NCBI RefSeq assembly: GCF_014673495.1
Contig: NZ_CP051006.1
Coordinates: 1,674,001-1,738,000, forward strand
Length of the DNA: 64,000 nt
Source of the DNA: Streptomyces griseofuscus
Lineage (GTDB): Bacteria; Actinomycetota; Actinomycetes; Streptomycetales; Streptomycetaceae
Direction of reading: 5' to 3'
Part shown: positions 17,598-34,006 of the stretch, piece after piece
Position numbering within the stretch: position 1 is the first letter of the stretch
Layout: every line of letters starts with the position of its first letter
Notes under the pieces: model-generated
Told to the model about the DNA's origin: nothing
Database searches by the model: none
Seen by the model: only the letters and a program-made list of their open reading frames with translations
Made by a program: the position numbers and the translations under genes

Positions 17598-17601
17598 GCC
17601 G

Positions 17602-18784: not shown

Positions 18785-18973
18785 AGCGGATACGCCGGTG
18801 GTGGCCCTCTCAACGGCGGCAAGCTCGCGCAGGTCGGTCTGGATGGCCTGGGCACCCGGCGGCCCCATGAGGGGCCACCGGTCGAGGAGCCGCAGGGGGA
18901 TGCCGGAGGCTGCGAGGTCTGCGGCCAGGCGGGTGTCGATGGCGCCGGCGGCCCCGGTGATCAGCAGCGTCAC
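18785..18973 (-). pseudogene. Truncated NAD(P)-dependent epimerase remnant
   Basis: GTG 18973 overlaps the stop of the upstream F420-ligase gene by 4 nt, as for a genuine next operon member. The reading begins LLITGAAGAIDTRLAADLAA, a Rossmann TGxxGxxG start with Asp in place of the final Gly, followed by LRLLDRWP and DLRELAAVERAT. Similarity stops near 18785; only unrelated sequence follows before the convergent lanthipeptide operon ends at 18714. This is the first 60-odd codons of an epimerase/dehydratase, cut by a rearrangement. Confidence 0.65.
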
Positions 18974-19698
18974 GGCCGGTGGTGCAGCGCTGCTGCGACT
19001 CCCTCGTCGCTGGCGGTGTAGGCGATGCCGCGCAGGACGGCGACGGGAGCGCCGCGCCCGCGCTGGCCGAGGATGATTCCGGCCGCGGCGGCGATCAGGT
19101 CGGTGAAGGTCTCCTCCTGCCGCTTTCCGCCGTGTTCGGTGATCCGCAGCGGGGCGATGCCGGCGGCGCCGATGGAGATGACGGTGGCCCCGCGCCGGTC
19201 GGCGCGGCCGTCGGAGTCTGCGACGACTACCGCGACGTCGGCACCGGTGTGGGTGATCAACGCGTCCCGCAGGGCGCGGGCGGAGGCGTCCGGGTCGACC
19301 GGCAGCAGCCAGGCGCCCTCGGTGCCGGCGCGGTCGATCCCGGCGGAAGTGAGCTGGTAGCCCAGGCGGTGCCGGGCGATGATGGGGCCCTTGTCGGTGG
19401 CCAGGAAGTAGTCGCTGGCGGAGTCGAGGATCAGCTGCACGAGCGGGGCCGGCTTGCCCGTCTTGCCCGCCAACTCCTGGGCTTCGGGGCCGGGGGTCAC
19501 GGTGCCCAGGTCGATGTACCGCTTCTCGGCGATGGAGACGGCTTTGCTCGCGATGACGACGATGTCCCCGTCCTGCAGCGCGGTATCGGTGCGGGTGAGG
19601 ACGTCGGTGATGGTGGCGGCCAGGTCGTCGCCCATCTGGAGTTCGGGGAACGGTTCCAGGGCGAAGGCCGAGAAGCCGGAGGTCGGGGTGGCGGTCAT
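18970..19698 (-). CDS. CofE-like coenzyme F420-0:L-glutamate ligase
   Basis: 242 residues from ATG 19698 with GCAGGAG upstream. The CofE/FbiB N-domain pattern is clear: DGDIVVIASKAVSIAEKRYI near 44-63, GADVAVVVADSDGRADRRGA near 157, then ISIGAAGIAPL. CofE forms GTP-dependent amide bonds between a phospho-lactyl carboxylate and glutamate. Actinobacterial F420 synthesis normally uses FbiB, in which this domain is fused to a nitroreductase-like domain. Here the ligase stands alone inside a biosynthetic operon, so it may glutamylate or aminoacylate a pathway intermediate rather than F420. It overlaps its neighbours by 4 nt on each side. Confidence 0.82.
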   Translation of the reverse strand: MTATPTSGFSAFALEPFPELQMGDDLAATITDVLTRTDTALQDGDIVVIASKAVSIAEKRYIDLGTVTPGPEAQELAGKTGKPAPLVQLILDSASDYFLATDKGPIIARHRLGYQLTSAGIDRAGTEGAWLLPVDPDASARALRDALITHTGADVAVVVADSDGRADRRGATVISIGAAGIAPLRITEHGGKRQEETFTDLIAAAAGIILGQRGRGAPVAVLRGIAYTASDEGVAAALHHRP

Positions 19699-20753
19699 CG
19701 GCGGGCTCCTGCGGGAGTGAGGATGTAGTGGTGCAGGCGGGCGTGGGCGCCGGCGAGTCGTTCGGCCCGCTGCCGGGTGGTGGCGTGCTGCCCGAGGGTG
19801 AGCCAGTCGTGGACGCGCCGGAGGTAGTACGGCCACAACCGGCGGGCCGCTTCGGTCGCCGACGCGCCAGAGTTGACGGCGTGCCAGGCGTCCGCGGCGG
19901 GCAGCGGCCAGGGGCGTTCATCGTATCCGCCGAGGTGTGGGCCAAAGCTGTCCAGCGTTGTCAGCATGGTCGCGAGGCGGGTGGGCTCCACTGCACGGTC
20001 AGCAACCCGGTACGACGCCTGGTTCTGGCCCCGGGGGACGGGCACCGGGCGGCGAGCGGCGGTCAGGTGCAGCAGCACGGGGACGGCCTGCTGGTAGATA
20101 GCCGGGAGGTGGGGGAAGGACCCGGCGTGCTGCTTGGGCCGGTCGAACCGTACGGAGACGATCGGCCCAATGGTTGCGACGGTCAGCAACAGGAAGGCGT
20201 CGATGCCGTATCCGTCTACGCACGCCGCTACTTCTGCGGGCAGCGCCGCGACAGCTCGGAGGGCGGCGTCCAGGGCGGCAGCGGAGAGGGTGATGTCCCC
20301 GGCCAGCGGCTGGGGCACGTCGTGGCCGCTGGTGGCGGCGATCAGCGGCCGGGCGAGGTGGTTGGTGAGGTTGGCCTCGTCCCAGTAGCGCGGATAGTCG
20401 GCGATGGCCACCGCAGCCCCGGCCCGGACGCGGTCCAGTAGCGCGCGGTAGACGGCCGGATCGGGATTGCGGGTATCGGTGTCAGCGATCAGCACTGCTT
20501 CGGCCGTCGCGATTTCGCTGCGACAGGCGGCGGCCAGGATCTGGGTGCCCTTGCCTCGCACCAGGTCGGTCAGCGGCACCTTCGCCGTCGTCGTGCCGGT
20601 GGCGGCGAACTGCCGCGCGGTTGCCGGGGTGTCGGAGGAGTCGGCGTGGACGATGACCGCCCCCAGGTCGTCGAGGGCCGCATCGACGGCCGTCGTGACG
20701 GCGGCGATGGTGGCGGGCTCGTTGCGGCTGGGCAGAATCGCGGCGAGGCTCAT
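19695..20753 (-). CDS. GT-A glycosyltransferase (GT2/GpgS-like)
   Basis: 352 residues from ATG 20753. The N-terminus AAILPSRNEPATIAAVTTAV is a GT-A nucleotide-sugar fold, GKGTQILAAA at about 68 is the GKG-type motif, and the metal-binding DxD is DTD at 91-93 followed by NPDP. These resemble glucosyl-3-phosphoglycerate synthase-like transferases. The acceptor is unknown. Overlaps of 4 nt with the P-loop gene upstream and the ligase gene downstream indicate one transcript. Confidence 0.78.
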   Translation of the reverse strand: MSLAAILPSRNEPATIAAVTTAVDAALDDLGAVIVHADSSDTPATARQFAATGTTTAKVPLTDLVRGKGTQILAAACRSEIATAEAVLIADTDTRNPDPAVYRALLDRVRAGAAVAIADYPRYWDEANLTNHLARPLIAATSGHDVPQPLAGDITLSAAALDAALRAVAALPAEVAACVDGYGIDAFLLLTVATIGPIVSVRFDRPKQHAGSFPHLPAIYQQAVPVLLHLTAARRPVPVPRGQNQASYRVADRAVEPTRLATMLTTLDSFGPHLGGYDERPWPLPAADAWHAVNSGASATEAARRLWPYYLRRVHDWLTLGQHATTRQRAERLAGAHARLHHYILTPAGARR

Positions 20754-21628
20754 CCGTTCTCGTCCTCCTTGCTCAACAGGTCGGCGGCCGTCTCGGGATC
20801 GGGGGCGTGCAGATAGTCGAACTGGCAGCTGGCAAGCCGGGTGATGAGGTGGCTGCGCCAGCGGGCCAGCCCGGGGGTGTCCAGCGGCCACACCGGCCCG
20901 TACGGAACCCCGGTGACGCCGTTCAGCGGGGTGGGCAGGCCGGAGATGGAGCGGCCCAGCAGCTCGTGCAGCCGCAGCCGCTCGTTCACCGACAGCGGCA
21001 CTGCGGGCGTTATCGACGCCGTGCCCAGGGCGGGGTGCACGGCCAGGTGCACGATGTGGGCCAGCGGGGCAGGGCCGACGGCGAACGGCTCCAGGGCACG
21101 GTGGGGCTTCGGGGCCAGTGGCTGGGCCGGGTCGCGGACGGCGGCGGTGGACTTGCCCGGCCAGACCGCCACCGTGCCGTCGCCGCTCTCGCCGAGGACG
21201 ACGAGGTCGTCACCGGCATGCGTCCAGCCGCGTGCCGCGAGGGCGAGCGCGGTGGACGTCTTGCCCGCGCCTTTCGTACCGAGCAGCAGCACCGCTCGTC
21301 CCTCGGGCACTATCAGCGCGGTGGCATGCACCGTGATCTTGAGCTGCTGCTGGCGGACGCGTTCGAGCGCGGTGTAGGTGACGTACGCCAGCGTGTCCGA
21401 GGCGGTGACGGACGGGGGAAGCCGCAGGCGCACGGTGTCCCCTGTGACGGTGACTGCTGCGGAGCCCCTGGTGACTTCGACGTCGACCGATTCCGTGGCG
21501 GAGGCGGCCGTGAGGCTCCATCCGCCGGGCAGGGCCCGGTCGGCCGCCCGCGCGGCCGTGGCGTCCAGACGCTCGGGCAGGGCGAGGAGAGCGGAAACGT
21601 GGCCGGTGGCGAGCCGGTGGGTGCTCAC
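20750..21628 (-). CDS. HPr-kinase-like P-loop protein
   Basis: 292 residues from GTG 21628. Residues 1-95 form an N-terminal domain of unknown type. The Walker A motif GTKGAGKT is at 117-124, followed by TALALAARGWTHAGDDLVVL, the layout of HprK-related kinases found beside many biosynthetic genes. PLNGVTGVPYGPVWPLD near residue 240 is also typical of these small kinases. Likely reaction: phosphorylation of a small molecule or peptide side chain; the substrate is unknown. Coupled by 4-nt overlaps at both ends. Confidence 0.7.
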   Translation of the reverse strand: MSTHRLATGHVSALLALPERLDATAARAADRALPGGWSLTAASATESVDVEVTRGSAAVTVTGDTVRLRLPPSVTASDTLAYVTYTALERVRQQQLKITVHATALIVPEGRAVLLLGTKGAGKTSTALALAARGWTHAGDDLVVLGESGDGTVAVWPGKSTAAVRDPAQPLAPKPHRALEPFAVGPAPLAHIVHLAVHPALGTASITPAVPLSVNERLRLHELLGRSISGLPTPLNGVTGVPYGPVWPLDTPGLARWRSHLITRLASCQFDYLHAPDPETAADLLSKEDENG

Positions 21629-22851
21629 CCCGCTGCTCGCTCCAGGTCGGCCAGCAGCTCCTCGACCGGGGCGACGGCGGGCAGGTACTGGCCGGCCAGC
21701 AGGTCCTCCATCCAGTCCGTGCGGGACAGCGTGGCCCGCACCAGCTCCTCGGCCGCCCCGGGCGGTGCCTGGTTGACCGTGGTGATCTCGATCGAGGCGG
21801 GCTCGTCGTACGGGGCGCCGTTGCGCCACAGCAGCGCGATACGGCAGGGCCCGAACTCGGCGGCCACCGCGCGGGCGGCCTCATCGGCGAGCCATCCGCC
21901 GACCTTGCCGACGTGGTAGGCCGGGTTCTTCCCGAACGTCGCCTCGTTCCCGGCCAGGTGGGCGCCGCTGATCACGCCGGTGCGGGCGTTGCCCCGGCCC
22001 ACGAGGCCGTCCTCGCCGTAGTCGACAGCCGACCCCGACAGCGTGAAGTACTGCCCGGAGAGCGGTCCGGTGCGGGAGTTGCGAGTGTTGCACACCACCG
22101 TCACCCGGCCCGGCAGCCGCTGAGCGAGCAGGTTGGTCAGCTCGCCGGCCGTGGCGGTGACCGCGTCGTCGAACTCGGCGGAGCTGCTCAGGTGCCCGGC
22201 CAGGGCGGGCACGCACACGGTCACCGTCCAGTTCGAGCTGTCGCGGACGGCGAGGGCCTTGATGTCGCTGCCTGCCCACGGCAAGCGGCGGAACCACGCC
22301 TCGGCCAGCAGCACCACGGTCTCCGTGACCGTGCGCGGGACCGAGCCGACGAGGTAGGCGGTGTCATTGGAAAACGCCCTTCGCCGCTCGGGCAGATCGT
22401 CCGGGGAGCGGGGCGCGAACCAGTGGGGGAACTTGGAGGAGTCGGTCGTCTCGTGCCTCACCTCCAGCTTCACCCGGCCGAAGCCCGGCAGGGCAATGCG
22501 CAGGTGGTCGACGACGGCCTGCTCCAGGATCTCTCGCACCGGCAGCGGGCGGCCGGCGAAGCTGGTGGAGATCCGGCCGCCGAAGACGACCCGCAGCGGC
22601 CGGTCGTACACGCCGTCGGTGTCGGTGAAGGCGGCCCGGCCGCCGAGGACAGCGACCTTGTCCAGGTTGTGGTGCAGCACCGCCCCCGCCACGTCCAGGC
22701 AGTGCCGGCTGTAGCGGATGGAGGCCAGCTCGGCGATGCCGTCGGCGAGGGTGTCGGGGTGGCCGATCCCTTTGCGTTCGACGACCTCGACCGGCAGCTC
22801 ATGCGGCAGCGGCGTGCGCGGCGCGGACAACGCGGGCGTCGCGGTAGACAC
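21625..22851 (-). CDS. Archaeal-type S-adenosylmethionine synthetase
   Basis: 408 residues from GTG 22851; GGAGG is 9 nt upstream (a TTG at 22857 is an alternative). The motif VERKGIGHPDTLADGIAE near the N-terminus and GNEATFGKNPAYHVGKVG near residue 310 match the archaeal methionine adenosyltransferase family (AdoMet_Synthase), which is unrelated in sequence to bacterial MetK. The reaction makes SAM from methionine and ATP. Such genes are rare in bacteria and usually sit in specialised-metabolite loci. Here it could supply the methyltransferase at 32614 or transfer a modified adenosyl group. The start overlaps the end of the Gfo/Idh gene. Confidence 0.85.
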   Translation of the reverse strand: MSTATPALSAPRTPLPHELPVEVVERKGIGHPDTLADGIAELASIRYSRHCLDVAGAVLHHNLDKVAVLGGRAAFTDTDGVYDRPLRVVFGGRISTSFAGRPLPVREILEQAVVDHLRIALPGFGRVKLEVRHETTDSSKFPHWFAPRSPDDLPERRRAFSNDTAYLVGSVPRTVTETVVLLAEAWFRRLPWAGSDIKALAVRDSSNWTVTVCVPALAGHLSSSAEFDDAVTATAGELTNLLAQRLPGRVTVVCNTRNSRTGPLSGQYFTLSGSAVDYGEDGLVGRGNARTGVISGAHLAGNEATFGKNPAYHVGKVGGWLADEAARAVAAEFGPCRIALLWRNGAPYDEPASIEITTVNQAPPGAAEELVRATLSRTDWMEDLLAGQYLPAVAPVEELLADLERAAG

Positions 22852-23167
22852 GGTCAATCACCTCCAGCGGGCGCCGCAGCGCCGTCAGCGGGAACAGGCA
22901 TGGGTGGGCGGGACGGCCCTCGGCGGCGTCCAACACCGCGGCGTACATCGCGCGCCGCAAGGCCGCGTGCGTAGGGGCGGCGGCGATCTCGCCGAGTCCG
23001 GCTTCGAGGTTCCGGCCGCGAACGGCAAGGCGGCGCCCGTCGGCGAGGTGGAGGACGAGTTCGTGGGCCGGCGGGCCGTCGTGGTCGACGCGGGCGTCGA
23101 TGTGCACCATGGCCCCGCCGGCGAGGACGATGGCGGCGGTGACGTGGTCCTCGGTCTCCGCCAGGCA
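22799..23167 (-). pseudogene. Gfo/Idh/MocA oxidoreductase, 3' fragment
   Basis: This is the C-terminal 122 codons of the oxidoreductase whose 5' part lies at 28756-29322. It resumes with CLAETEDHVTAAIVLAGGAM, then RGRNLEAGLGEIAAAPTHAA and PLEVIDRVYRDARVV, a typical substrate-domain end of the Gfo/Idh family. It lacks its own NAD-binding domain and starts exactly at the left boundary of the Tn554-like insertion. Joining the two fragments at the shared CCGG gives an uninterrupted frame of about 311 residues. Confidence 0.85.
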
Positions 23168-23184
23168 CCGGTTTCTCTGGGGGC
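23168..23184. repeat. Left end of the Tn554-like element
   Basis: Target core CCGGT (23168-23172) is followed by the terminal 12-mer TTCTCTGGGGGC. The complement of the 12-mer is at 28743-28754. No second copy of the 12-mer was noticed near this end. Confidence 0.75.
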
Positions 23185-23322
23185 AACCGTGTGGCGCGAG
23201 GCGAGTGGAGACCACTTTGTGCAGCTCAGCGCTGGTGTGATCGACAGTATCGTGTGCAACACCTGTGGCGCTACTGCCGGGTCGCCAAGCGGGATTGCCG
23301 ACCCGGCAGCGGAGGTTCGGTG

Positions 23323-23754
23323 TCAGTGTTCGGCGCCCTTCGCGCGGATGTCGGAGGCTGGCGGCACGGGGGTGGAAACCAGCAAGAGTGCGGCAAACGC
23401 AAGGGGAGCGGCTGTCTGGTACCCGATCCACACCTCGCCCCCGGCACTGCCGTCCTGCCACGCCATCAGTAAGCCGGCAAGCGCCGTCAGCACCCAGCCG
23501 CTGTCGTAGGCGACCATGAGCCGCATGTAGGTGCGGATCGGGTGACTGCGCACAAACTTGATCTCGATCCCGCCGCCGATCAGCAAGGCGACGCCGGAGA
23601 CGGCCATCAACCAGGCGGACACGCCAAGTAGATCGCCAAGCCAGGAAGCGCCAATTAAGTAGGCGGCACCGAGCACTACCTTGAAGACACCGTCAGCGAT
23701 GATCCCCGCCAAGCGGCGCGTCGCTGACGGTGTCGCAGCCTGGGCCTGCGTCAT
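23323..23754 (-). CDS. Four-helix integral membrane protein (transposon cargo)
   Basis: 143 residues from ATG 23754, with GAGGAA upstream. Hydrophobic segments lie at about 22-44 (VFKVVLGAAYLIGASWLGDL), 46-64, 82-100 and 112-130. No transport signature is recognised. It is divergent from the TetR gene across a 60-bp intergenic region containing two palindromes, so it is the likely regulatory target, perhaps conferring efflux or membrane protection. Confidence 0.65.
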   Translation of the reverse strand: MTQAQAATPSATRRLAGIIADGVFKVVLGAAYLIGASWLGDLLGVSAWLMAVSGVALLIGGGIEIKFVRSHPIRTYMRLMVAYDSGWVLTALAGLLMAWQDGSAGGEVWIGYQTAAPLAFAALLLVSTPVPPASDIRAKGAEH

Positions 23755-23786
23755 GAGCGTTCCTCCCTGATGCCTGTCCCACTCCC

Positions 23787-23816
23787 GTAACGTTGTTACT
23801 AGAATAATGGAATTAT
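23787..23816. promoter_or_regulatory. Palindromes between membrane protein and tetR, probable operator
   Basis: GTAAC-GTT-GTTAC (23787-23799) and ATAAT-GGA-ATTAT (23804-23816) lie back to back in the short divergent intergenic region; the second runs into the tetR start codon. TetR proteins bind such palindromes and commonly autoregulate, so either could be the operator. Confidence 0.5.
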
Positions 23817-24447
23817 GAGAATGACGAGAGCGGAAACCAAGGAACGCAACCGCCGCGCCCTGCTGGATGCTGCCTTCCAAGTCGTCTCCCGGGATGGGCA
23901 CCGCGCAAGGCTCGACGAGATCGCTGAGCAGGCCGGCCTGACGACCGGCGCTGTCTACTCACTGTTCGGCAGCAAGGGCGGCCTGGTAGCAGCCTTGGTC
24001 ACCGACTACCTGCGGCCGCACTATGAAGAGATCGAGCAGGTGATCCCCGCAGAGATGGATCTCCTGGAAGCGGTTGAAGCCTTTGCCCGGTACTACCGGC
24101 GCAGCTGCGATGCCCCGGCCGCGATCTCTGCCCTGTCGTTGCAGATCACCCTGCTGGACATGGCCTTGCACGACCCCGAACTCGGTTCCCAGCTCGCCGC
24201 GTCCGTCCAGACGCAGGAGAGCCACCTGATCGCGTTGTTCACCGGCAGATCACACAACGGGAAAGCCGTGACGTCGCATCAGGCACAACGTCTGGTTACC
24301 GCGCTCAGGGCACTGTTCGTCGGTCTCACGCAGGGAGTCATCCTGGGCCTCGCCCCCGGTGCCGACGAGCAGTACTTCGCCGATACCGCCTGCGCCCTGG
24401 TGTCCAACGCGACCCTCATCGATCAGGACGTCGACGCCCCTGCGTGA
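23815..24447 (+). CDS. TetR family transcriptional regulator (transposon cargo)
   Basis: 210 residues from ATG 23815 (ATG 23821 also possible). The TetR HTH is at about 10-55: RNRRALLDAAFQVVSRDGHR, then LDEIAEQAGLTTGAVYSLFG. The C-terminal ligand domain is helical. It is convergent with the tnpC-like gene, leaving 1 nt between stops. Base composition is slightly lower in GC than the surrounding operon, in keeping with imported cargo. Confidence 0.85.
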   Translation: MRMTRAETKERNRRALLDAAFQVVSRDGHRARLDEIAEQAGLTTGAVYSLFGSKGGLVAALVTDYLRPHYEEIEQVIPAEMDLLEAVEAFARYYRRSCDAPAAISALSLQITLLDMALHDPELGSQLAASVQTQESHLIALFTGRSHNGKAVTSHQAQRLVTALRALFVGLTQGVILGLAPGADEQYFADTACALVSNATLIDQDVDAPA

Positions 24448-24448
24448 T

Positions 24449-24973
24449 TCAGCCGCGTTGGTTCAGGGCTCTGGTCAGATCTCGGTTGGCCTCCCTCGCG
24501 GCATCGAGATCGGACCGGGCCTCCTCCAACGCGGAGGTCAGTTCGACGTTGTGCTGCTCCAGCCTCGTGATCTTCCGCTGGAGCTCGTCGATGTCCGCTG
24601 GAGCTCCGAGCCCTGACTCCTGCCATGCCTGAGTTCCCAGCGCCTGCGACAGCCGCTTCTCCAACTGCTGGACGCGGGCGGCGAGGCGGGCGTTGCGAGC
24701 CTGGGCGTTCGCGAGGTCGGCTTGGAGCGAGGCTCGGCTCACTGGCGAAGTGCCTGCCGGGTCCTGAGTCGCAGGTTCGAGCTCGGCCGCGTGCACGATT
24801 TCCAGCAGGTCGCGGTGACGGTAGAGGAAGCTGCGATCGACTCCGGCTTGCCGGGCGATCGCCGAGACGCTGATGGGCGTGCCGTTCCTCGCGGCGTTCT
24901 TGACTGCGGTGGCGACGCGCTGGCGGCGTCGCTCGGTGTCGGCCTGCCGGCCGTCGCGCATGGCAGGGATCAC
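24449..24973 (-). CDS. TnpC-like/DUF6262 accessory protein
   Basis: 174 residues from ATG 24973, overlapping the upstream recombinase stop by 4 nt. Residues 15-60 hold a winged-helix-like segment (GTPISVSAIARQAGVDRSFL, then YRHRDLL). Residues 80-170 form a long coiled coil (LEKRLSQALG, DIDELQRKITRLEQHNVELT). This is the third, small partner found with paired tyrosine recombinases in Tn554-type elements, thought to assist strand choice or efficiency. Confidence 0.75.
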   Translation of the reverse strand: MIPAMRDGRQADTERRRQRVATAVKNAARNGTPISVSAIARQAGVDRSFLYRHRDLLEIVHAAELEPATQDPAGTSPVSRASLQADLANAQARNARLAARVQQLEKRLSQALGTQAWQESGLGAPADIDELQRKITRLEQHNVELTSALEEARSDLDAAREANRDLTRALNQRG

Positions 24974-27462
24974 GGGAGCCTCCAGGGCCTGACGTCGGGA
25001 AGCGGCTGGCCGACGCGGGGCATGCCCAGCATCACTGAGCGGCCGCGGCGTACCACGGCGACGGCTTCTTCGATCTGGGCACGTTCTTCGTCGGAGAGGT
25101 CGTCCAGGTCGGCCTTGACCCGGTTGATCAGACGGCGGACCCGGCTGATCTCTTCCTCGGAGGGCATCGCTTCGCTGCGGGCCCAGTCGTCGGCCTCGAA
25201 GGCCGACATCAGCCGCTCGCGGCTGCGGAGAAGATCAGAGAGGTATCGCTCCAGGTCAGGCAGGTAGGAGACGTCGGTGCGGAAGTGGTCGCAGCCGATG
25301 CAGCGGAAGCGGAGCGGGCAGCTCTGGCCGCCAGCCGCGACGTTGTGGGGTTCCAGGCAGATGCCGTAGGCAGTGGCGACTTCGCCGATGGCCCGCCGTA
25401 CGTGCTCGGAGTCCAGAAGTCCTTGTGCTTTGCGCCAGACGCGGGTGCCGCGGCGGTCGAACTGCAACGCGGTGACCCGGTCGACGGCCTCACGGCGTCG
25501 ACCCTGGCTGACCCGGTAATAGCCCTGAGTTGTGGAGAGTTCACGATGGTCCATCAAATCCATGAGCACGTCGGGGTCGACGTTGGCGTCCGCGTGCCGC
25601 TGAGCGAAGGAGTGCCGGTAGGCGTAGGGAAAGATCTTGGACTTGTCGAACGGCAGCAGCTTCGTCACCAGCTGCCCGTCGACCTCGACGACGACCGGAA
25701 TCATGATGTCGGGCAGAGTGTTGACCCAGGCCCGGTGGGCGTCGCCGATCGAACCGATCGGCTTCGTTCCTGCGGGGTTGGCCACCGGGCTCGGCAGCAG
25801 CTTGAGCTTATCGGCCGGAGTGTCGGGGAAGCGTTCACGCACCCGCTCCTGCTGTTCCATGATCACGGCGGCGGTCGCCTTCGCGATCGGCAGACGACGG
25901 CCCAGCCGGTAGTTCTTGGAGTTGTCATAGATCAGGACCAAGGTCCCGTCCGGGTCCTTGCCCAGGCACTCCAGCGCCAACGTGCTGATCTCGTCCGGCC
26001 GCCGGCCGGTGTCGACAAGCAGCTCGGCCGCGACGCGATACTCGCGGTTGCTCATCTTCTCCAGCAGATCGAAGTTGTCGCAGAGTTCCCGCATCACCTC
26101 GTCCGGCAGGTCCCGTCCCGCCTCGGTGTCCTCGGGCTCGTCGGGGATGTCCTCCATGGACAGGGAGAAGTCCGCCGGCAGGCCCTCCAGCATCTGGCCG
26201 GGGCCAGTGAGACCCAGGACACGGATCCGGTTCACGATTCTGCGGACGTAGCGGATCACGTTGACCCGGTGATGAGCCCCGAAGACGCCGGTCTCGGCGA
26301 GGAACGCGACGCGGTTGCAGAAGCTGACCATGTCCGTGCGGCTCAGAAGCCGAATTTCGTGCCCCTCGTCGTCTCGCTGCAGCCGCAGGCTGTCCGAGAG
26401 CTGTTCCATGCCGCGGATCATGTTCTGCATGGAACTGGCGACATGCCGGCCGCGGCGCCGAGGGAGTTCGTCATAGGCCCAGACCTTGACCGCCTCCCGC
26501 AGGGGACGCTGGTGGATCCGGCTGAACGTGAGCGTGCCGTGGTGGCCGAAGACGAACAGGTCCCAGACGTCCTTGAGCCGCTCGGTCTCCGCAGTCGCCC
26601 CCAGCCTGCGCAGCGCAGTCTGTGCACCACGGATGATCATCCGCAGGTCATCGACCATCCCCGCGCGGATCAGGTCGTCCTCTCCCAGCATCTCCAGGCT
26701 CGGGACCTGGAGCAGACGCAGCTGATCGCTGATATGCCGCATCCGGTGATCCTTGGTCTTCGCCTGCCGGGCGGTGCGGACCTGAAGGCAGTAGAGGAGC
26801 TCCGCGACCAGCCGGTCAGGCAGCCCGCGCAGGCTGACTTCGCGGTTGACCGGCACCGACGACGACGTCAGGCGCCACCGTTCCTCGTCTCCGTCGAAGG
26901 TCCCCAACCGCCGTTCGCGGTTGAGGCGGCCTCGGTGGACCTCGCAGTAGCGGGTCCGTTCCGAGCCGCGCAGCCGGTAGCAGGCGGCGACCTGACAGGG
27001 TCCGAACCCGGGCAGCCCCTGCTGCGGGGAGTTCCGCAGGAAGTCCTCCACGGTCAGCTCGGACGAGCTGTGCCAGCGCGCCTGGTGAGTGGTGCAAAGA
27101 CCATGAGTGACCAGCCGGGGCGGTCGCTGACAGCCCGAGACACGACAGAGGACCTGCCCGTCGGAGCGGTGATAGGCACTGTCCCTCGGGACCGCGGCGA
27201 AGTCCTCGAAGGACAGGCCGGACCGCCGCCAGCGGCCGATGCAGCCGACACAGACCGGTTCGCCGAGCGGGGTGCCCTTCGTGCAGCCGGGGATCTCGCA
27301 GTCCGGCATGCCCAGCACCGGATGGACCTTGGGGTAGCGCACGACACGCGACTCCCAGTCCCAGCTCACCAGGCTCAGGAACTCGGCGTCCAAGGCGTCG
27401 ATGATGACCTGGGTCCGCAGGTCCTGAAGCTCATGGGCCAGCGGCAGAGGTGCCCCGATCAC
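24970..27462 (-). CDS. TnpB-like large tyrosine recombinase
   Basis: 830 residues from ATG 27462. The N-terminal 200 residues contain Cys/His-rich clusters (CEIPGCTKGTPLGEPVCVGC, CRVSGCQRPP, CEVHRGR) suggesting zinc-binding DNA contacts. The catalytic half has an Arg in DTGRRPDEIS (about 490), a His/Arg cluster in YAYRHSFAQRH (about 627) and the nucleophile region LMDHRELSTTQGYYRVS. A further Cys cluster CPLRFRCIGCDHFR follows near 730. Size and partners match TnpB of Tn554-type elements. It overlaps the TnpA-like and TnpC-like genes by 4 nt each. Confidence 0.85.
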   Translation of the reverse strand: MIGAPLPLAHELQDLRTQVIIDALDAEFLSLVSWDWESRVVRYPKVHPVLGMPDCEIPGCTKGTPLGEPVCVGCIGRWRRSGLSFEDFAAVPRDSAYHRSDGQVLCRVSGCQRPPRLVTHGLCTTHQARWHSSSELTVEDFLRNSPQQGLPGFGPCQVAACYRLRGSERTRYCEVHRGRLNRERRLGTFDGDEERWRLTSSSVPVNREVSLRGLPDRLVAELLYCLQVRTARQAKTKDHRMRHISDQLRLLQVPSLEMLGEDDLIRAGMVDDLRMIIRGAQTALRRLGATAETERLKDVWDLFVFGHHGTLTFSRIHQRPLREAVKVWAYDELPRRRGRHVASSMQNMIRGMEQLSDSLRLQRDDEGHEIRLLSRTDMVSFCNRVAFLAETGVFGAHHRVNVIRYVRRIVNRIRVLGLTGPGQMLEGLPADFSLSMEDIPDEPEDTEAGRDLPDEVMRELCDNFDLLEKMSNREYRVAAELLVDTGRRPDEISTLALECLGKDPDGTLVLIYDNSKNYRLGRRLPIAKATAAVIMEQQERVRERFPDTPADKLKLLPSPVANPAGTKPIGSIGDAHRAWVNTLPDIMIPVVVEVDGQLVTKLLPFDKSKIFPYAYRHSFAQRHADANVDPDVLMDLMDHRELSTTQGYYRVSQGRRREAVDRVTALQFDRRGTRVWRKAQGLLDSEHVRRAIGEVATAYGICLEPHNVAAGGQSCPLRFRCIGCDHFRTDVSYLPDLERYLSDLLRSRERLMSAFEADDWARSEAMPSEEEISRVRRLINRVKADLDDLSDEERAQIEEAVAVVRRGRSVMLGMPRVGQPLPDVRPWRLP

Positions 27463-28676
27463 TTCTCCACCGTTTCGTGCAGGGACCGCGGGGAGGGGAC
27501 ACGCTCGATCGCCTCGCGCAATCGGGCCCGGTCGGGAATCAGGTAGGGCCTGGGCGACTCCGGGTGTGTCTGGCCGAGCAGGGCCTGCACCTCGTCCGCC
27601 GACCCGCCGGCGTCCGCGACGTTGCTGCCGAAAGCCCGGCGGGCCATGTGGGGGCCGACCTTCCGCGACAGCCCGGCCCGCTGGCTCAGCCGCTCGAACA
27701 GCTCGCCCAGCGCGTCCGGCGGCATCGGCGCCCCCAGCGGCTCGCGAAACAGGTTCACCAGCAGGAAATCGCTGCCGCCCGCCCCGAGTACTTCGTGGCG
27801 CTCATCGACGTACTGGTCGAAAGCCTGGACCACCAAGAAGTCCAACGGCTGTGTCCATGCCTGCTTCGACTTCGACCAGGCCCGGTTGCTGTTGTCCCGC
27901 CGCCGGACGTGGAGGTGGGCACCGCTGTAGTCGCAGCCCAGGGCCCGCGAGTCGGGAAGCAGGTGACAGTCACTGCGGTGCAGGCCGGCCGCCTGGCCGC
28001 GGCGCAGCCCGACCCGGCCGAGCAGCAGCACGATCAACCGGTCACGGGCGTTGCGGCACTCCAGGAACATCGCCACCAGCTCTTCGTCGGTGGCCCGGTC
28101 CACCTCGGCCTCCGGCTCCTGGCTCCGGTGGACAGCTCGCAGCCGGTAGGACAAGCCGGAGTCCTCGCCCTGGGCCTCCACCGGCAGGTCCCGGCTGTCC
28201 GCCAGCTCGTAGATCTGTCCGAGCACCGACCGCGGTGCCTCACCGACCGACACCGCGTAGGACAGCAGCCCCCGCACCGCCGTCAGGACGCCGTTGACCC
28301 GCCGCTCTTTGCGAGCCGGGTCGGCGCCTGGCCCCAGCACCACCGGCGCCGGGTCCTCATCCAGCGAGGACGGCGTGTACTTCAGCCAGACCATGAACAG
28401 GCCCAAGTCCCGCGCGGCGACGGACCATTCGCGCCCGGTTGACCGGCACCACCGCAGGTACAGCGCTATGCCGCCCGCGTACGCCTTCGTCGTCAACTCG
28501 GACCGGCTTCGGCCGAACCGCAAGAACCTCAGCCACTGATCAGCGATGAACACGACCTCGTAGCCGTCATCGACGACCGTCCAATACCGCACGCCAGAGG
28601 GCAATCTGACAGGAAAGGCACGCAATGCAACTCCATGATCTGACGGTTGATGCAACAACCCGCCACAGAGCCGCAC
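27459..28676 (-). CDS. TnpA-like tyrosine recombinase
   Basis: 405 residues from GTG 28676; a later start is possible. The N-terminal SAM-like core-binding domain spans about 45-160 (FLRFGRSRSELTTKAYAGGI). The catalytic domain has Arg in GRVGLRRGQAAGL (about 243), HMARRAFGSN (His and Arg, about 345) and LLGQTHPESPRPYL with the probable Tyr nucleophile. The usual LLGH is LLGQ here. First gene of the tnpABC-like operon, starting about 80 nt from the element's right end. Confidence 0.85.
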   Translation of the reverse strand: MRLCGGLLHQPSDHGVALRAFPVRLPSGVRYWTVVDDGYEVVFIADQWLRFLRFGRSRSELTTKAYAGGIALYLRWCRSTGREWSVAARDLGLFMVWLKYTPSSLDEDPAPVVLGPGADPARKERRVNGVLTAVRGLLSYAVSVGEAPRSVLGQIYELADSRDLPVEAQGEDSGLSYRLRAVHRSQEPEAEVDRATDEELVAMFLECRNARDRLIVLLLGRVGLRRGQAAGLHRSDCHLLPDSRALGCDYSGAHLHVRRRDNSNRAWSKSKQAWTQPLDFLVVQAFDQYVDERHEVLGAGGSDFLLVNLFREPLGAPMPPDALGELFERLSQRAGLSRKVGPHMARRAFGSNVADAGGSADEVQALLGQTHPESPRPYLIPDRARLREAIERVPSPRSLHETVEK

Positions 28677-28760
28677 CCCCAGAGAACGATCTTCAGAAGA
28701 TCAACATAGCCCTCCGGTACAACGTCCCACCACATAGAGCCAGCCCCCAGAGAACCCGGT
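28676..28760. repeat. Right end of the Tn554-like element with repeated terminal motif
   Basis: The end motif CCCCCAGAGAAC occurs twice in direct orientation, at 28676-28687 and 28744-28755, 68 bp apart. A 15-bp palindrome GATCTTC-A-GAAGATC (28688-28702) lies between. The outer copy pairs with the left end as an inverted repeat and abuts target core CCGGT (28756-28760). The inner copy may be a subterminal recombinase-binding site. Confidence 0.7.
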
Positions 28761-29322
28761 AGTGCACCACCTTGGCGTCGATCGCCTCGACGTCGCCGGG
28801 CAGCAGCCGAAGGGTGACGGCCAGGCCGTGGATGGCCTGCTGGTGCAGCACACCGCCTGCGGAGGCGTAAGTGCGTCGCCAACCGCGGAAGTAGCCGGGA
28901 TCCCGCCGTACGGCCAGCAGCACCTCGGTCCTTACGACATCCGGAGGCTCGGCGAGCAGTGCGTCGAGGCCGGGGGCGAAGTGCGGCTGGAAGGCAACGA
29001 AGATGCGTTCGTCGCCAGGCCGGGGCACCAGGGCGGCGGGGTCGATGGTGCAGGGCTTCTCCACGAGCACGGCGGCTCCGGCCTGGGCGGCGTCCCGGGC
29101 CGCGGCGAGCGCGGTCCCAGGCGGGGCGGCCACGACCACCAGATCCGGTGTCGTGGCCGTCAGGGCCGTCCGGCAGGAAGCGAACAGCGGGATGCCTGGA
29201 GGCACCTCGGCGCGCGGGTCGGGGTCGGCGACCGCGGCAACCGCCAGGCCAGGAGCGCCGACGAGGGCGGCCAGGTGCTTGGCTCCGACCTCCCCGGCTC
29301 CGACCAGCAGCACCCGCTTCAC
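28756..29322 (-). pseudogene. Gfo/Idh/MocA oxidoreductase, 5' fragment
   Basis: 189 codons from GTG 29322, overlapping the upstream isomerase stop by 4 nt. The Rossmann start VLLVGAGEVGAKHLAAL, the EKP-containing motif AAVLVEKPCTIDPA (about 90) and GGVLHQQAIHGLAVTL (about 160) define the NAD(P)-binding Gfo/Idh family. Native coding ends at KVVHYR, exactly at the transposon junction; a further 20 codons read into the element before a stop. Its continuation is at 22799-23167. Confidence 0.85.
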
Positions 29323-30176
29323 GCGATGCCGCCCGGGACAGCGGAGCGCAGGAACGCGGCGCCGGCAGCGAGTGCCTCGGTGGGCGTGTCGCGCACATGG
29401 GTCTCCAGCGCGTACGGCAGAGCCGGCCGGGCCGCGTGCAGCAGCGGCAGTACCTCGCCATACGGCACCACGCCCTCGCCGGCCGGACAGAACGCCCGGC
29501 CGCCGCCGTCGGTGGGCCGGTAGTCCTTGACGTGCACGTAACCCACGTACGGGGCCAGAGCGCGGACCACCTCGGAAGTGGCCTGGCCGACTTCATGAAG
29601 GTTCGCCACGTCCAGCCACAGCCCCAGGCCCTGCCCGTGGTACCGGTCCAGGATCTGCAGCAGCGGCTCGGCGTGGGCGACGGTGCACACCGGCTCGTTC
29701 TCCAGCAGCAGCCGCACCCCCGCGGCATTCGCCAGCTCCAGGGCCTTGGCCAGCAGCGGATCGCCGAACAACTCCTCGGTCAGCTCCGGCTCGACACGCA
29801 GGTGGGAGAAGACCCGCACGACCGGAGCGCCAACGATCCGGGCGACTTCGATGACCCTCTCGACCCAGCCCAGCCGCTCCTCGGGCGGGACCCGGGTGGG
29901 GAAGCCGAAGGTGTCCACCCGGCCGGGCCGAGCCTCGGGTCGGCACCACTTCCACAGCGGCGAGGCCAGCGCCGCCACTTTCAGGCCGCGCTCGTCGGCC
30001 ATGGCGCGGATGCGCCGCAGTCGGTCGGTGGGCAGGGTCACCGCGTTGGCGCCCTCGGCCGAGCGGATCTCCAGATGCCCGATGCCCAGCTTCACCGCCA
30101 GATCCATGCCCGGCGCTGGGTCGGGGCCGATTTCGTCAGGGTTGAGTACCAGCGTGCTCGCCGACGGTGCGTCCAC
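29319..30176 (-). CDS. Xylose-isomerase-like TIM-barrel protein
   Basis: 285 residues from GTG 30176 with AAGGAGAAG upstream. The sugar phosphate isomerase/epimerase (AP_endonuc_2) fold is indicated by LGIGHLEIRSAEGANA, GAPVVRVFSHLR, VRLLLENEP (metal Glu), LGLWLDVANLHEVGQ (metal Asp) and VGYVHVKDYRP (metal His/Asp). Such enzymes isomerise or epimerise keto-sugars and often pair with Gfo/Idh oxidoreductases, as here through a 4-nt overlap. The pair would oxidise and isomerise a sugar or inositol-like intermediate. Confidence 0.82.
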   Translation of the reverse strand: MDAPSASTLVLNPDEIGPDPAPGMDLAVKLGIGHLEIRSAEGANAVTLPTDRLRRIRAMADERGLKVAALASPLWKWCRPEARPGRVDTFGFPTRVPPEERLGWVERVIEVARIVGAPVVRVFSHLRVEPELTEELFGDPLLAKALELANAAGVRLLLENEPVCTVAHAEPLLQILDRYHGQGLGLWLDVANLHEVGQATSEVVRALAPYVGYVHVKDYRPTDGGGRAFCPAGEGVVPYGEVLPLLHAARPALPYALETHVRDTPTEALAAGAAFLRSAVPGGIA

Positions 30177-30212: not shown

Positions 30213-30245
30213 CCTCGTGCCGGGGCGCCTTCTTCCGGCACGAGG
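30213..30245. terminator. Hairpin in the 256-nt gap upstream of the isomerase gene
   Basis: A perfect 11-bp stem, CCTCGTGCCGG (30213-30223) with 30235-30245, has an 11-nt loop. It sits 36 nt upstream of the isomerase start on the minus strand and could be a terminator or a structured leader. Confidence 0.45.
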
Positions 30246-30395
30246 GGCGTCCAGGGCTGTCAGAGCGGGCTCAGTCGTCGCCGCCCGGCGGGGCGGCTGC
30301 GGGATCGGCGACAGAGGCCGAGGGGGCGGGGGCTGCGGCCCCCAGGCGGGGACCGGAACGGGTCAGGCGGTCAGCTGCGGGCCGACCGACCCCAA

Positions 30396-30427
30396 CCCGC
30401 GTGGGCTGGCGCGACAGCCCACGCGGG
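30396..30427 (-). terminator. Hairpin terminator after the JmjC/cupin gene
   Basis: A perfect 13-bp stem, CCCGCGTGGGCTG (30396-30408) with 30415-30427, has a 6-nt loop and begins 5 nt past the minus-strand stop at 30433. It probably splits the biosynthetic operon into two transcription units or attenuates read-through. Confidence 0.6.
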
Positions 30428-30432
30428 AGCCT

Positions 30433-31435: not shown

Positions 31436-31577
31436 AGCAATCTCCTCTTCTTTAAGACCAGTTGGCTTGTGAATCGCGGCCGGTGACGCAAGCGGCGTAC
31501 TCATGCACGAACGCCTCCACGCAGGCGGGGTGGAAGCCGCTCCGCCAGCGCACTCGCGGCCCGTTTTTCGTGCTGTG

Positions 31578-32438
31578 TCATGAGCGCGGTCCCACCAGCA
31601 CGTCGCACCACACCGGGAGATGATCCGAATGTTTCCGGGCATCAGGGGTGTCGTGGATGCCGTAGCCGACCGCCTCCATGCCAGCGGTCAGGGTGTAGTC
31701 CAGGCGCCAGGGCACCCGCTCGTTCTCCCAGAAGTAGCCGACGCTCGCGGCCTCGCGGTCACCGAACATCGTCTGCGGGTCCTGCCAGCCGGAGGCGAGC
31801 AGCACCTGGACGGCACGCCGGTCCGCAGGGCCGAAGGCGCCGTTGGGCAGCACGATCCGGTACCGCGATTGCAGGTTCTCGGGGACGCGTGACCAGTCGT
31901 CCAGATCCCTGTCCGGCGTGTTGAGATCACCCAGGAGCAGCGCGCCCCGCGGCACGCCCGGGAAGGGACCCCCGTAGTCGGTCAGCATCCGGGCCTCGAT
32001 CAGCCGTGCGTCGCCCGAGGACCAGCCGAAGTGCGTGGCGAAGACGGTGAAGTCGCTGCTCGGGTCGTCGCCGACCGCGGCCGGGCGCAGCAGGGCCCGG
32101 ATCAAAGCGTGGTGGAAAGTGCCCTCGCCCACGCTCCACCAGTCGATGAGCCGGACGGTGGAAGGCCGGATCAGCAGGGAGGTGCCGTTCGGTGGGCTGG
32201 GGACCCTGCGGACGCGCGAGGGCACCATGGCGACGGGCACCATACCCAGCGTGCGAGCCATCCAGGAGAGGTGGTGGTTGGCCCAGCCCGTGCACTCCTG
32301 GAGGCTCAGGATGTCCGGGGTCAGGCTGGCAAGCATGTCCGTCTGCGCGCGAAGGCGCGTGTCGGTGCCGGCGTCGAGGCCGCCGTTGAGCATGTTGTAG
32401 GTCATGGCACGCAGCCGGATCGGCGCAATGCTAGTCAT
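31578..32438 (-). CDS. Endonuclease/exonuclease/phosphatase (EEP) superfamily hydrolase
   Basis: 286 residues from ATG 32438. EEP motifs appear in order: MTYNMLNGG (Asn), LSLQECTGW (metal Glu, about 48), ATHFGWSSGDARL, LLLGDLNTP (Asp/Asn, about 195) and the C-terminal HSDHLPVWCDV (catalytic Asp-His). The superfamily hydrolyses phosphodiesters or phosphomonoesters in nucleic acids, lipids and nucleotides. No signal peptide is seen. In this operon it could remove a phosphate from a biosynthetic intermediate, consistent with the HPr-kinase-like gene downstream; that pairing is inferred. Confidence 0.82.
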   Translation of the reverse strand: MTSIAPIRLRAMTYNMLNGGLDAGTDTRLRAQTDMLASLTPDILSLQECTGWANHHLSWMARTLGMVPVAMVPSRVRRVPSPPNGTSLLIRPSTVRLIDWWSVGEGTFHHALIRALLRPAAVGDDPSSDFTVFATHFGWSSGDARLIEARMLTDYGGPFPGVPRGALLLGDLNTPDRDLDDWSRVPENLQSRYRIVLPNGAFGPADRRAVQVLLASGWQDPQTMFGDREAASVGYFWENERVPWRLDYTLTAGMEAVGYGIHDTPDARKHSDHLPVWCDVLVGPRS

Positions 32439-32521
32439 ATGTACCCCAGCAGGGGCCTAGTCGAGCAGCGACGGCAGATGGTCATGGGGCTCCTTGCGCA
32501 CGTTCCAGAGTCGGTTGGTGA

Positions 32522-32565
32522 CCGCTCCCCGGCCGCGACCGTGACGTCCGGCGGCCGGGGAGCGG
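32522..32565 (-). terminator. Strong hairpin between methyltransferase and EEP genes
   Basis: A perfect 15-bp GC-rich stem (32522-32536 with 32551-32565) has a 14-nt loop and lies 49 nt downstream of the methyltransferase stop on the minus strand. It is probably a terminator or attenuator inside the operon. Confidence 0.6.
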
Positions 32566-32613
32566 CGCTTGCCCCGCCCCCTGGACGGGCCAGATCAGGG
32601 GGCAGGAGTCTCA

Positions 32614-33201
32614 TCAATTCCGCAGGGCTACGCCGACCAAGGCGCTGTCCCTGGTGAGGCGGTACACGGTCATGTGCCGCCAGTGGCTGGCCAGCTCATC
32701 GATCGCCGACTTCGGCAGACCGCGGCGAGCTACGCCCGGCCGCGTCAACTCGGACACGGTCGTCGTGATGTGGAGCACTCCGCCCGGCCGGAGCCAGCGG
32801 CGCAAATTGGCCGTGAAGCGGGGACCGGCCACGAACTCATAGCTGAGCCTGCACGTGACGAGGTCTACGGGGCCTGGGTCAGGGACCAGCGGTCGCGGGC
32901 TCGTGACGTCGTACAGGCGGAAGTCCAACAGCGGGACATCGGCGTGGGCCCAGCGCGCGGACGCGATGGCGGACAGGCTGTGGTCGAGGCCCGTGACCTG
33001 CATCCCCCAGCTGGCCAGGTGGGCACTCAGCCGACCGGTGCCGCAGCCGACGTCCAGGACGCGCATGCCGGACTCGGCTCCGGTGGTGGCGCGCAGCATC
33101 TGCCGCTCGATGTCGGAGGGCGGAGGCGTGGTGTAGCCGGTCTCATAGAGGTCGTCCCAGTAGGCGGCCATCTGCGTCTCGATCAGGGTGTCGGTGCTCA
33201 T
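32614..33201 (-). CDS. Class I SAM-dependent methyltransferase
   Basis: 195 residues from ATG 33201. The SAM-binding motif I is VLDVGCGTGRLSAHLASWGM at about 49-68, motif II TGLDHSLSAIASARW, then PVDLVTCRLSYEFV and LRPGGVLHITTT. The fold is of the small-molecule type (methyltransf_25/11). The start overlaps the stop of the small membrane protein by 4 nt. The SAM synthetase downstream on the same strand suggests methylation, or another SAM-derived transfer, is central to the pathway. Confidence 0.82.
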   Translation of the reverse strand: MSTDTLIETQMAAYWDDLYETGYTTPPPSDIERQMLRATTGAESGMRVLDVGCGTGRLSAHLASWGMQVTGLDHSLSAIASARWAHADVPLLDFRLYDVTSPRPLVPDPGPVDLVTCRLSYEFVAGPRFTANLRRWLRPGGVLHITTTVSELTRPGVARRGLPKSAIDELASHWRHMTVYRLTRDSALVGVALRN

Positions 33202-33395
33202 GCGTTACCTGTCTCCTGGTCAAAGGGCGTGACCGGCTCAGCCGTGACCGTCTGGAGCCTGCTGATGTCGTCGTGAATGGTGAAGCCGAGGAGCATGTAC
33301 GCGGCGAGGTGACCGGCCACCAGGAGCGTGGCTGGGACCGCGCCTAACAGCTCGCGCCTCACTCGGCCGGGGCTCAGGGGGGGTCTTGCAGACAT
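33198..33395 (-). CDS. Small single-pass membrane protein
   Basis: 65 residues from ATG 33395. One hydrophobic helix (LLGAVPATLLVAGHLAAYML) is flanked by a basic N-terminus and a polar tail. No recognised family. It overlaps the methyltransferase start by 4 nt, so it is probably co-translated. Confidence 0.55.
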   Translation of the reverse strand: MSARPPLSPGRVRRELLGAVPATLLVAGHLAAYMLLGFTIHDDISRLQTVTAEPVTPFDQETGNA

Positions 33396-33466
33396 GACTC
33401 TCGATTCAGGAGGGCGAGGAAGAGGCGTCGGCCGTGGGCGGGGCAGAGGGGACGGCCGACGCCAGC

Positions 33467-34006
33467 TCATCGGGTTGTCGGCGCACACGAGGCGGCCTCG
33501 GCCGCACGCGCGCGCAGTGCCTCGTAGAGGTGCTCGGGGTCCGCGAGAACCGGGCCGCCGTAGTCGGGAGGGATCAGCCAGTAGTGCCCGGGGGGCGAGG
33601 TGCGGTCCAGGCTCGGCACAACGATGCACTGGGTGAAGGGCGGGGTCCCGCCCTGGCACACCACGCCGACCAGGCCGCTGTCGCGTGGCCAGTACCCGGA
33701 CGTGCCGGGCGGCACCAAAAAGTAGATGGCCGGCAGGAAGGGGTCGCACCAGACCGCCCCGACTCCCAGCGCCTTCACCGTGGAGCGAAGCTCCTCCGGC
33801 GCGGTGAACCCGTCGCCAAGAGCACTGTAGGGCGCGCGTACGGCGTCCCACACGATCCCGGCTGTCAACGGGGCTACACCGCGCTCCGCCCACCCCTCGG
33901 GCGTGGGCGTCGGCCTTGCGGCCCGGAGCATCCACTGCGTCGCCCGAACCCGACGCTCCAGGGCCTCCCCGCGCGACGGGGGCACCGCGCGTCTCACGGC
34001 GGTCAC
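33467..34006 (-). CDS. Hypothetical protein, first gene of the biosynthetic operon
   Basis: 179 residues from GTG 34006. It contains aromatic and proline-rich stretches (AVWCDPFLPAIYFLVPPG, SPPGHYWLIPPDYGGPV) followed by a helix (PEHLYEALRARAAEAAS). No catalytic motif or family is recognised and there is no signal peptide. It is the most upstream gene of the minus-strand cluster, 226 nt below the XRE/TPR regulator. Confidence 0.6.
   Translation of the reverse strand: MTAVRRAVPPSRGEALERRVRATQWMLRAARPTPTPEGWAERGVAPLTAGIVWDAVRAPYSALGDGFTAPEELRSTVKALGVGAVWCDPFLPAIYFLVPPGTSGYWPRDSGLVGVVCQGGTPPFTQCIVVPSLDRTSPPGHYWLIPPDYGGPVLADPEHLYEALRARAAEAASCAPTTR

Follow-up and report, generated by a model that had tools for sequence, protein, structure and literature searches.

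What might an archaeal-type methionine adenosyltransferase (MAT), a P-loop kinase-like protein, a glycosyltransferase (GT) and a glutamate ligase of the coenzyme F420 type make together in an actinobacterium? The question is raised by a run of minus-strand genes in Streptomyces griseofuscus (host genome of 9.1 Mb), found in a stretch of 64,000 nucleotides, hereafter the window, that covers positions 1,674,001–1,738,000 of contig NZ_CP051006.1. A sequence-only reading had taken the run for one unusual biosynthetic operon of about 13 genes. Comparison with other genomes shows that a shorter cassette inside this run is real and conserved, and it is probably undescribed in print. Its genes in the window, called with a simple codon-usage caller and therefore with approximate start codons, are:

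29319..30176, minus strand: TIM-barrel isomerase/epimerase-like protein (PF01261), the first cassette gene
28755..29322, minus strand: Gfo/Idh oxidoreductase, N-terminal piece (residues 1 to ~191, by match to intact relatives)
22799..23171, minus strand: Gfo/Idh oxidoreductase, C-terminal piece (residues ~189-299, by match to intact relatives)
21625..22851, minus strand: archaeal-type MAT, an S-adenosylmethionine (AdoMet) synthase (PF01941, NF003362)
20750..21628, minus strand: HprK/PEPCK-fold P-loop kinase-like protein (profiles and a model of the relative in locus L033)
19695..20753, minus strand: GT-A glycosyltransferase, mannosylglycerate/glucosyl-3-phosphoglycerate synthase-like (profiles and a model of the L033 relative)
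18970..19698, minus strand: CofE-like ligase with an F420_ligase domain (PF01996), outside any F420 locus
18782..18973, minus strand: remnant of a uronate-dehydrogenase-like short-chain dehydrogenase/reductase (SDR), first 66 residues (by match to intact relatives)

The archaeal-type MAT, HprK-like P-loop, GT-A and F420_ligase-domain proteins had all been named correctly from the sequence, and domain matches agreed with the TIM-barrel, EEP, methyltransferase and JmjC_2 calls made along the same run.

A scan of genome contigs with the GT alignment returned 19 loci, in Streptomyces, Salinispora, Sphaerimonospora, Actinomadura, Pseudonocardia, Nocardia, Actinacidiphila and Streptantibioticus. Clustering by protein family was carried out on 24 loci, which stand for 23 genomes including that of the window, hence 22 others, because L034 and L055 are contigs of one genome (loci, genomes and families carry our labels L, G and F). 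CofE, GT and HprK were each found in 23 of the 24 loci, MAT in 22 and TIM/Gfo in 22; no other family exceeded 12, with an AroE-like protein in 12 loci and the SDR in 8, and the next families were mostly regulators. The core order, TIM-barrel – Gfo/Idh – MAT – HprK-like – GT-A – CofE-like, was the same in every locus not cut by contig ends or by degradation (L047, a degraded copy with a contig end inside CofE). Core genes mostly overlap by 4 nt, and Gfo/Idh and MAT by 41 to 53 nt with our caller, the RefSeq start in L062 giving a shorter overlap. Since the same six core families come back in a fixed order and with characteristic overlaps, the cassette is not a chance assembly. Some of these loci are redundant or incomplete: the four cassette genes of L105 do not differ from those of L055, L041 and L053 are near-duplicates that share flanks, L042 and L049 are both from Salinispora, and contig ends or the caller truncate the HprK start of L039 and the TIM gene of both L040 and L057. 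The SDR and/or the AroE-like gene usually follow CofE (in L034 the SDR precedes TIM). Upstream, a divergent gene was present in 13 of the 18 loci that have at least 5 kb of upstream DNA; it belongs to F6 (6 loci), F8 (3) or F10 (4), of which F6 and F8 carry helix-turn-helix (HTH) domains and F10 is without a Pfam match. Two small genes separate it from the cassette in L044.

The cassette is also mobile and patchy. Most of the HprK-like protein was found in 3 of 72,556 plasmid records; the full eight-gene form lies on the conjugative plasmid NZ_CP109316.1 and a six-gene form on CP108998.1. Among 392 Streptomyces genomes, five carried the cassette (G000, G008, G128, G225 and G284), and 37 had PF01941 matches, so that archaeal MATs, previously described as rare in actinobacteria, are better called uncommon than rare in Streptomyces. 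A sample of the class (394 genomes, E 1e-60) contained the cassette MAT in two genomes (G000, G534), a sister MAT in three (G292, G445, G583) and weaker MATs in four. Protein searches, in which the 7,997-7,999 candidates with most shared words were scored, yielded 160 GT relatives at E 1e-5 or better and 136 HprK relatives at 1e-3, all actinobacterial where named among 120 listed. The MAT search (1,497 matches at 1e-20) gives no cassette count because other clades are included. The MAT-HprK-GT-CofE block recurs in other genomes, and the first description of it as an unusual biosynthetic unit is supported. In keeping with the early remark that the combination was not recognised as a described pathway, we found no published description of the cassette or its product in the open-access literature, a search that covered few subscription journals and no cluster database.

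What could such a cassette make? The GT and the CofE-like ligase are the most informative enzymes. Residue conservation was read from alignments freed of near-duplicate and truncated rows (20 of 23 rows for GT, 19 of 23 for CofE, 18 of 23 for HprK, 20 of 22 for MAT), and fold models of the GT and HprK-like proteins are AlphaFold models of the L033 relatives, compared by Foldseek. The GT model (pLDDT 83) has mannosylglycerate synthase 2y4m as its nearest fold (E 1.6e-10, prob 1.00, TM ~0.6) and is also near the glucosyl-3-phosphoglycerate synthase GpgS (4dec, E 8.9e-9); the titles of its relatives in the PDB include a lactate complex. These relatives, which we take to be families GT78/GT81, presumably glycosylate glycerate, lactate or 3-phosphoglycerate. 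The cassette GT shares with them the GT-A fold, a DxD-type motif (DTD in 20/20 rows), a QPLxG motif and a likely α-hydroxy-acid acceptor, but it is a tight family of its own with low profile scores: 28 bits to solved GpgS, and 33.7 bits in the window (range 34-40) to the GpgS equivalog NF010496, whose cut-off is 262.

The CofE-like ligase matches PF01996 at 174.5 bits and solved CofE 7uld at 141 bits, and lies below the TIGR01916 equivalog cut-off of 180.65 (163.8 bits in the window, 170 in L033). According to the review PMC8498797, individual bacterial CofE enzymes are known within F420 producers, CofE is co-inherited with other F420 genes, and a CofE homolog adds glutamate to a lactyl or, in 3PG-F420, a glyceryl carboxylate; a glyceryl acceptor is therefore known for CofE enzymes. 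The closest parallel is thus the assembly of the F420 tail (CofC/CofD/CofE; FbiD/FbiA/FbiB), especially that of 3PG-F420, where, as proposed here for the cassette, a CofE-family ligase puts glutamate onto a lactyl- or glyceryl-type carboxylate. The cassette differs in that no CofC, CofD or CofG/H family is conserved across the 24 loci, with families annotated through representatives (and none is annotated in L062 or L063), and in that the hydroxyl of its acid would bear a hexose instead of a phosphodiester. We therefore rejected a variant F420 pathway; a second F420 ligase is encoded elsewhere in the host genome.

Since GT relatives use glycerate- or lactate-type acceptors and CofE enzymes lactyl or glyceryl carboxylates, the two activities fit one α-hydroxy acid. 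We propose, as a scheme that is plausible though somewhat short of probable, that one and the same acid receives a hexose at its hydroxyl from the GT and glutamate at its carboxylate from CofE, the other enzymes supplying a modified sugar, a phosphate and an AdoMet-derived part. In this scheme, the Gfo/Idh enzyme would oxidise, and the TIM-barrel protein isomerise or epimerise, a sugar or cyclitol; the HprK-like protein would phosphorylate a small molecule; the GT would glycosylate a glycerate- or lactate-like acid; the CofE-like ligase would form a GTP-driven amide between glutamate and that acid; the SDR and/or the AroE-like enzyme, where present, would adjust the oxidation state of the sugar-acid part; and the MAT would make AdoMet as a building block and not as a methyl donor. 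A product that is glycosylated, phosphorylated and glutamylated, as guessed from the sequence at the outset, fits these enzymes.

The remaining enzymes are compatible with these roles to different degrees. In the HprK-like protein, the P-loop residues G121, K123, G126, K127, T128 and S129 were found in 18/18 rows, and its model (pLDDT 85) resembles PEPCK (E 3e-7, TM 0.5) and HprK 1ko7 (E 2e-6, TM 0.3); its 22 bits to Pfam Hpr_kinase_C lie under the cut-off of 33.3. The TIM-barrel protein matches Art22 weakly (27 bits), with E154, D182, H208 and E251, presumably metal-binding, invariant in 15 aligned rows, and the Gfo/Idh protein scores 61 bits to an oxidoreductase. Intact relatives of the SDR score 210-226 bits to uronate dehydrogenases (6mfh, 225.6) and carry a YxxxK motif (Y131/K135) in 6/6 rows. 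The AroE-like protein (F5, absent from the window) matches shikimate dehydrogenases at 197 bits; K64, N85, D100 and Q243 are kept in 10/10 rows and the first substrate Ser is Ala in 10/10, residue roles that we assume from E. coli positions.

The MAT deserves closer attention. The window protein scores 206.5 bits to PF01941 (cut-off 27) and 482.5 to NF003362 (cut-off 481), the L033 relative falling under the latter at 433. The five cassette MATs of the Streptomyces genomes score 192-211 bits to PF01941, compared with 294-329 for most other Streptomyces copies; judged by sequence, cassette MATs are a distinct subfamily. Residue roles were taken from a study of the T. kodakarensis MAT (TkMAT, PMC3853416) and transferred by us through an alignment. 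H30, H59, N61, N161, D195 and Y267 are present in 20/20 rows; the positions thus kept are the catalytic His, the His and Asn residues that bind the methionine carboxylate, one Asp at the ribose and the Tyr at the adenine. TkMAT D283, which contacts the ribose and the methionine amino group (PMC3853416), is Glu in 20/20 cassette MATs. Compared with 29 other MATs, at least one of which (L004) was read in the wrong frame, six positions are conserved differently on the two sides; R-to-A and Y-to-G changes are each at least 90% conserved per side. The host genome has three matches to the bacterial-type MetK N-domain (G000:C2:107028, C1:6887631 and C1:3080280). All together, the cassette MAT resembles archaeal methionine adenosyltransferases in its PF01941 family, its catalytic His and its methionine-carboxylate positions, but differs in the Glu at Asp283 and in its setting, a cassette without a methyltransferase in a host with three MetK-type matches. 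Because of this setting, we favour AdoMet as a building block.

Several observations weigh against the scheme. The AdoMet role of the MAT is a guess: methionine is not certain to be its substrate because Asp283 is replaced, and a dedicated MAT may simply boost AdoMet. Fold similarity fixes neither the acceptor of the GT nor the amino acid used by CofE. The HprK-like protein scores only 20-26 bits to known kinase families, with a moderate fold match. Finally, neither SDR nor AroE is present in five of the 22 other genomes (L040, L043, L048, L051 and the degraded L047), and neither adjoins CofE on plasmid CP108998.1.

Does the cassette behave as one unit? Pairwise distances among TIM, Gfo, MAT and HprK (module I) correlate with r 0.90-0.95, and those of GT and CofE (module II) with r 0.85, against 0.33-0.59 between modules. 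In trees of 17 rows per module, the two modules conflict within a main group of eight loci: the group L032, L033, L045 and L054 favoured on the MAT side is rejected by the GT and CofE data (p-AU 0.0004), and the group L032, L035, L052, L054 and L057 favoured on the GT side by the data of the MAT side (p-AU 1e-70); these values are optimistic because the groups were chosen after the trees were seen. Moreover, in the metagenome protein cluster P0069 a GT seems to be followed in the same frame by a CofE part that is incomplete at its end. We read these patterns as two sequential sub-pathways that may have been partly exchanged between cassettes. Speaking against a clean separation, both modules recover this eight-locus group (100/100 in module I, 86/71 in module II), and all correlations, those between modules included, exceed permutations (0/999), with shared ancestry uncorrected; any exchange is partial because of this common split and these correlations. 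P0069 itself is a single cluster (11 members) from a contig of 2.3 kb; its start is odd, and the fusion may be a frame artefact.

How else could the cassette be understood? In place of a secreted bioactive compound, its product might be a compatible solute in modified form or a glycoside resembling a cofactor, such as a glutamylated glycosylglycerate, with the MAT only raising AdoMet. The GT relatives make compounds of the mannosyl- or glucosylglycerate type, which serve as solutes, and no transporter is found among the core families. We nevertheless regard this as unlikely: a cassette present in 5/392 Streptomyces genomes and carried by plasmids has the look of accessory specialised metabolism, a recurrent divergent gene accompanies it (HTH-bearing F6 or F8 in nine of the 13 loci, F10 in four), and the host already has its three MetK-type matches.

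Another possibility concerns the chemistry of the MAT, which might adenosylate a nucleophile other than methionine by attack on C5' of ATP and leave a 5'-adenosyl group in the product. The low PF01941 scores that set the subfamily apart (192-211 versus 294-329 bits), the invariant Asp-to-Glu change at TkMAT D283, the R-to-A and Y-to-G changes and the lack of a conserved methyltransferase would all agree with such a role. We consider it doubtful, however, since the positions that bind the methionine carboxylate (TkMAT H62, N64 and N161) are kept in 20/20 rows.

It is very unlikely, in our view, that all genes from 34006 to 18785, including the JmjC, EEP and methyltransferase genes, form one long pathway with one product. 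Upstream of the cassette, the minus-strand genes at 30433-34006 encode a JmjC_2 protein, a 115-aa protein, an EEP protein, a methyltransferase, a small membrane protein and an unknown protein, followed at 34232-35461 (minus strand) by an HTH_31 regulator of family F11. The single strand and the short gaps throughout argue for one unit, as do the relative of EEP beside the cassette in L046 and the F11 relatives of the regulator that adjoin the cassette in L043 and L048. Yet EEP is the sole gene of 30433-34006 with a relative in the 23 other cassette loci; the JmjC, 115-aa, methyltransferase, small membrane and unknown proteins have none there, and the JmjC and 115-aa genes form a pair that occurs without the cassette in L103 and L104. 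The minus-strand run with several 4-nt overlaps at 18970-34006 is as first described, but the comparison of neighbourhoods rejects a single 13-gene pathway. The methylation step that had been inferred is likewise unsupported because the methyltransferase is not conserved with the cassette.

The JmjC/115-aa pair itself is located as follows:

30433-31435 of the window, minus strand: JmjC/115-aa pair
8566-9572 of L103: JmjC/115-aa pair
8662-10139 of L104: JmjC/115-aa pair

The JmjC protein was found in 2/294 other Streptomyces genomes, with the small protein adjoining in both; outside Streptomyces, the 115-aa protein gave two matches in 394 genomes (E 1.7e-4). The small protein, present in two copies in L104, is conserved towards its front but varies in its tail, which contains Cys; it looks like the precursor of a ribosomally synthesized and post-translationally modified peptide with a JmjC-type oxygenase.

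A defence or signalling cassette in place of a metabolite pathway is scarcely credible: the gene set is compact, mobile and patchy with HTH-type regulators nearby, but PADLOC (2023), run on L062, gave only 17 bits to mad8 for the HprK-like protein and nothing for the seven other cassette proteins, and the HprK-like protein matched 0/50,697 phage records at 1e-5. With no PADLOC-level match and no phage copy, a known anti-phage defence system was rejected. The thuringiensin (thu) cluster was weighed as a parallel since, on paper, it resembles the cassette in its aldarate-forming dehydrogenase, hexosyltransferase, kinase and adenosyl chemistry; the cluster is plasmid-borne, and adenosine, a hexose, a sugar diacid and phosphate are combined in its product. 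It was set aside because its gene list in PMC4147579 has no MAT or CofE.

We return to the preferred scheme of a doubly substituted α-hydroxy acid and ask whether the window copy could still carry it out. The Gfo/Idh gene had been listed without mention of a break; its family is right, but its two pieces flank an inserted element:

23173..28758, strand not assigned: transposon of ~5.6 kb that splits Gfo/Idh (by end comparison with a plasmid element)
27459..28592, minus strand: tyrosine recombinase 1 (TnpA-like)
24970..27462, minus strand: tyrosine recombinase 2 (TnpB-like)
24449..24973, minus strand: DUF6262/TnpC-like protein
23821..24447, plus strand: cargo, TetR-family regulator
23323..23754, minus strand: cargo, membrane protein, weakly DUF2243-like, below cut-off

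An element on plasmid NZ_CP108555.1 has the same ends; the two match at 94.4% identity across 4,310 bases and, at the opposite end, at 88.8% across 107 bases. The plasmid element has a methyltransferase gene as its cargo, unlike the TetR-family regulator and membrane protein of the window. Two tyrosine recombinases, a third small protein and defined ends give the element what is presumably a Tn554-type layout. The earlier gene list had omitted the two recombinase genes inside the run, though its suggested check spoke of clusters lacking the transposon. At the other end of the cassette, a gene called a broken epimerase is indeed broken, but it corresponds to residues 1-66 of the uronate-dehydrogenase-like SDR: homology to intact relatives ends at residue 66, position 18782, next to a plus-strand gene that ends at 18714. 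No AroE-like sequence was found in the window. The reading frames of MAT, HprK, GT and CofE are still open; because Gfo/Idh is split, however, we predict that the pathway does not operate from the window copy.

The DNA on either side holds other features. A plus-strand FxLD-family lanthipeptide cluster lies at 12144-18714, with a precursor at 12144-12329 (TIGR04363, 56 bits), a methyltransferase (TIGR04364, 417 bits), a LanC-like protein that matches the LanM model weakly, and a protein without an NCBIfam match that we read as lantibiotic-dehydratase-like. Two pairs of transposase-like open reading frames, at 35658-36409 and 57105-57856 on opposite strands and with the same start residues, are apparently two copies of one insertion sequence.

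Is the cassette an isolated case among archaeal-type MATs of actinobacteria? We inspected the neighbourhoods of 20 other such loci, from 19 of the 37 Streptomyces genomes with PF01941 matches (Pfam was run on representatives only), and all 20 fall into two recurring gene sets. In 15 (type B), the MAT stands with a seryl-tRNA-synthetase-like protein, a histidine-phosphatase-family protein and an unknown protein, M3; in fourteen of these, a GT4-like transferase and a fructosamine-kinase-like protein are present as well. The remaining one, L078, has a different group-1 GT and adjoins genes of the nonribosomal peptide synthetase type (condensation/AMP-binding), for which reason we read it as not compact. 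In the other five (type C), the MAT stands with an SDR, in four with an inositol-1-phosphate-synthase-like protein and in four with an APH-type kinase-like protein. A kinase-like gene occurs in 18 of the 20 loci, L078 and L087 being without any kinase family looked for. HprK-like proteins of type C match the cassette HprK weakly (BLASTP 1e-4, none at 1e-8) and have no Pfam match. Finally, a sister cassette (L074, L075 and L077) combines a MAT of 39-41% identity with TIM, Gfo/Idh, a P-loop AAA_28-like protein, a GT2, a carbamoyltransferase and a NUDIX protein, and so shares its TIM and Gfo/Idh genes with the CofE cassette. In these loci the MAT lies beside sugar- or cyclitol-type, transferase or ligase-like genes, whereas a carbamoyltransferase (sister), a seryl-tRNA-synthetase-like protein (type B) or an inositol-phosphate-synthase-like protein (type C) replaces CofE.

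An interpretation that we hold as possible, though rather improbable, is that archaeal-type MATs mark an undescribed family of small, mobile cassettes in actinobacteria, of at least four types (CofE, carbamoyl, SerRS-like and inositol-phosphate), whose products would be phosphorylated conjugates of sugars or cyclitols that incorporate AdoMet or another 5'-adenosylated unit; the MAT would then not serve methyl supply, and the CofE type would represent an F420-independent use of the ligase. Because the core comprises only six to eight genes and intact copies exist on plasmids, the product can be sought directly. If the interpretation is true, the F420 glutamate ligase would gain a role outside F420. 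An overlooked "extra SAM synthase" also becomes a handle with which to search for such gene sets.

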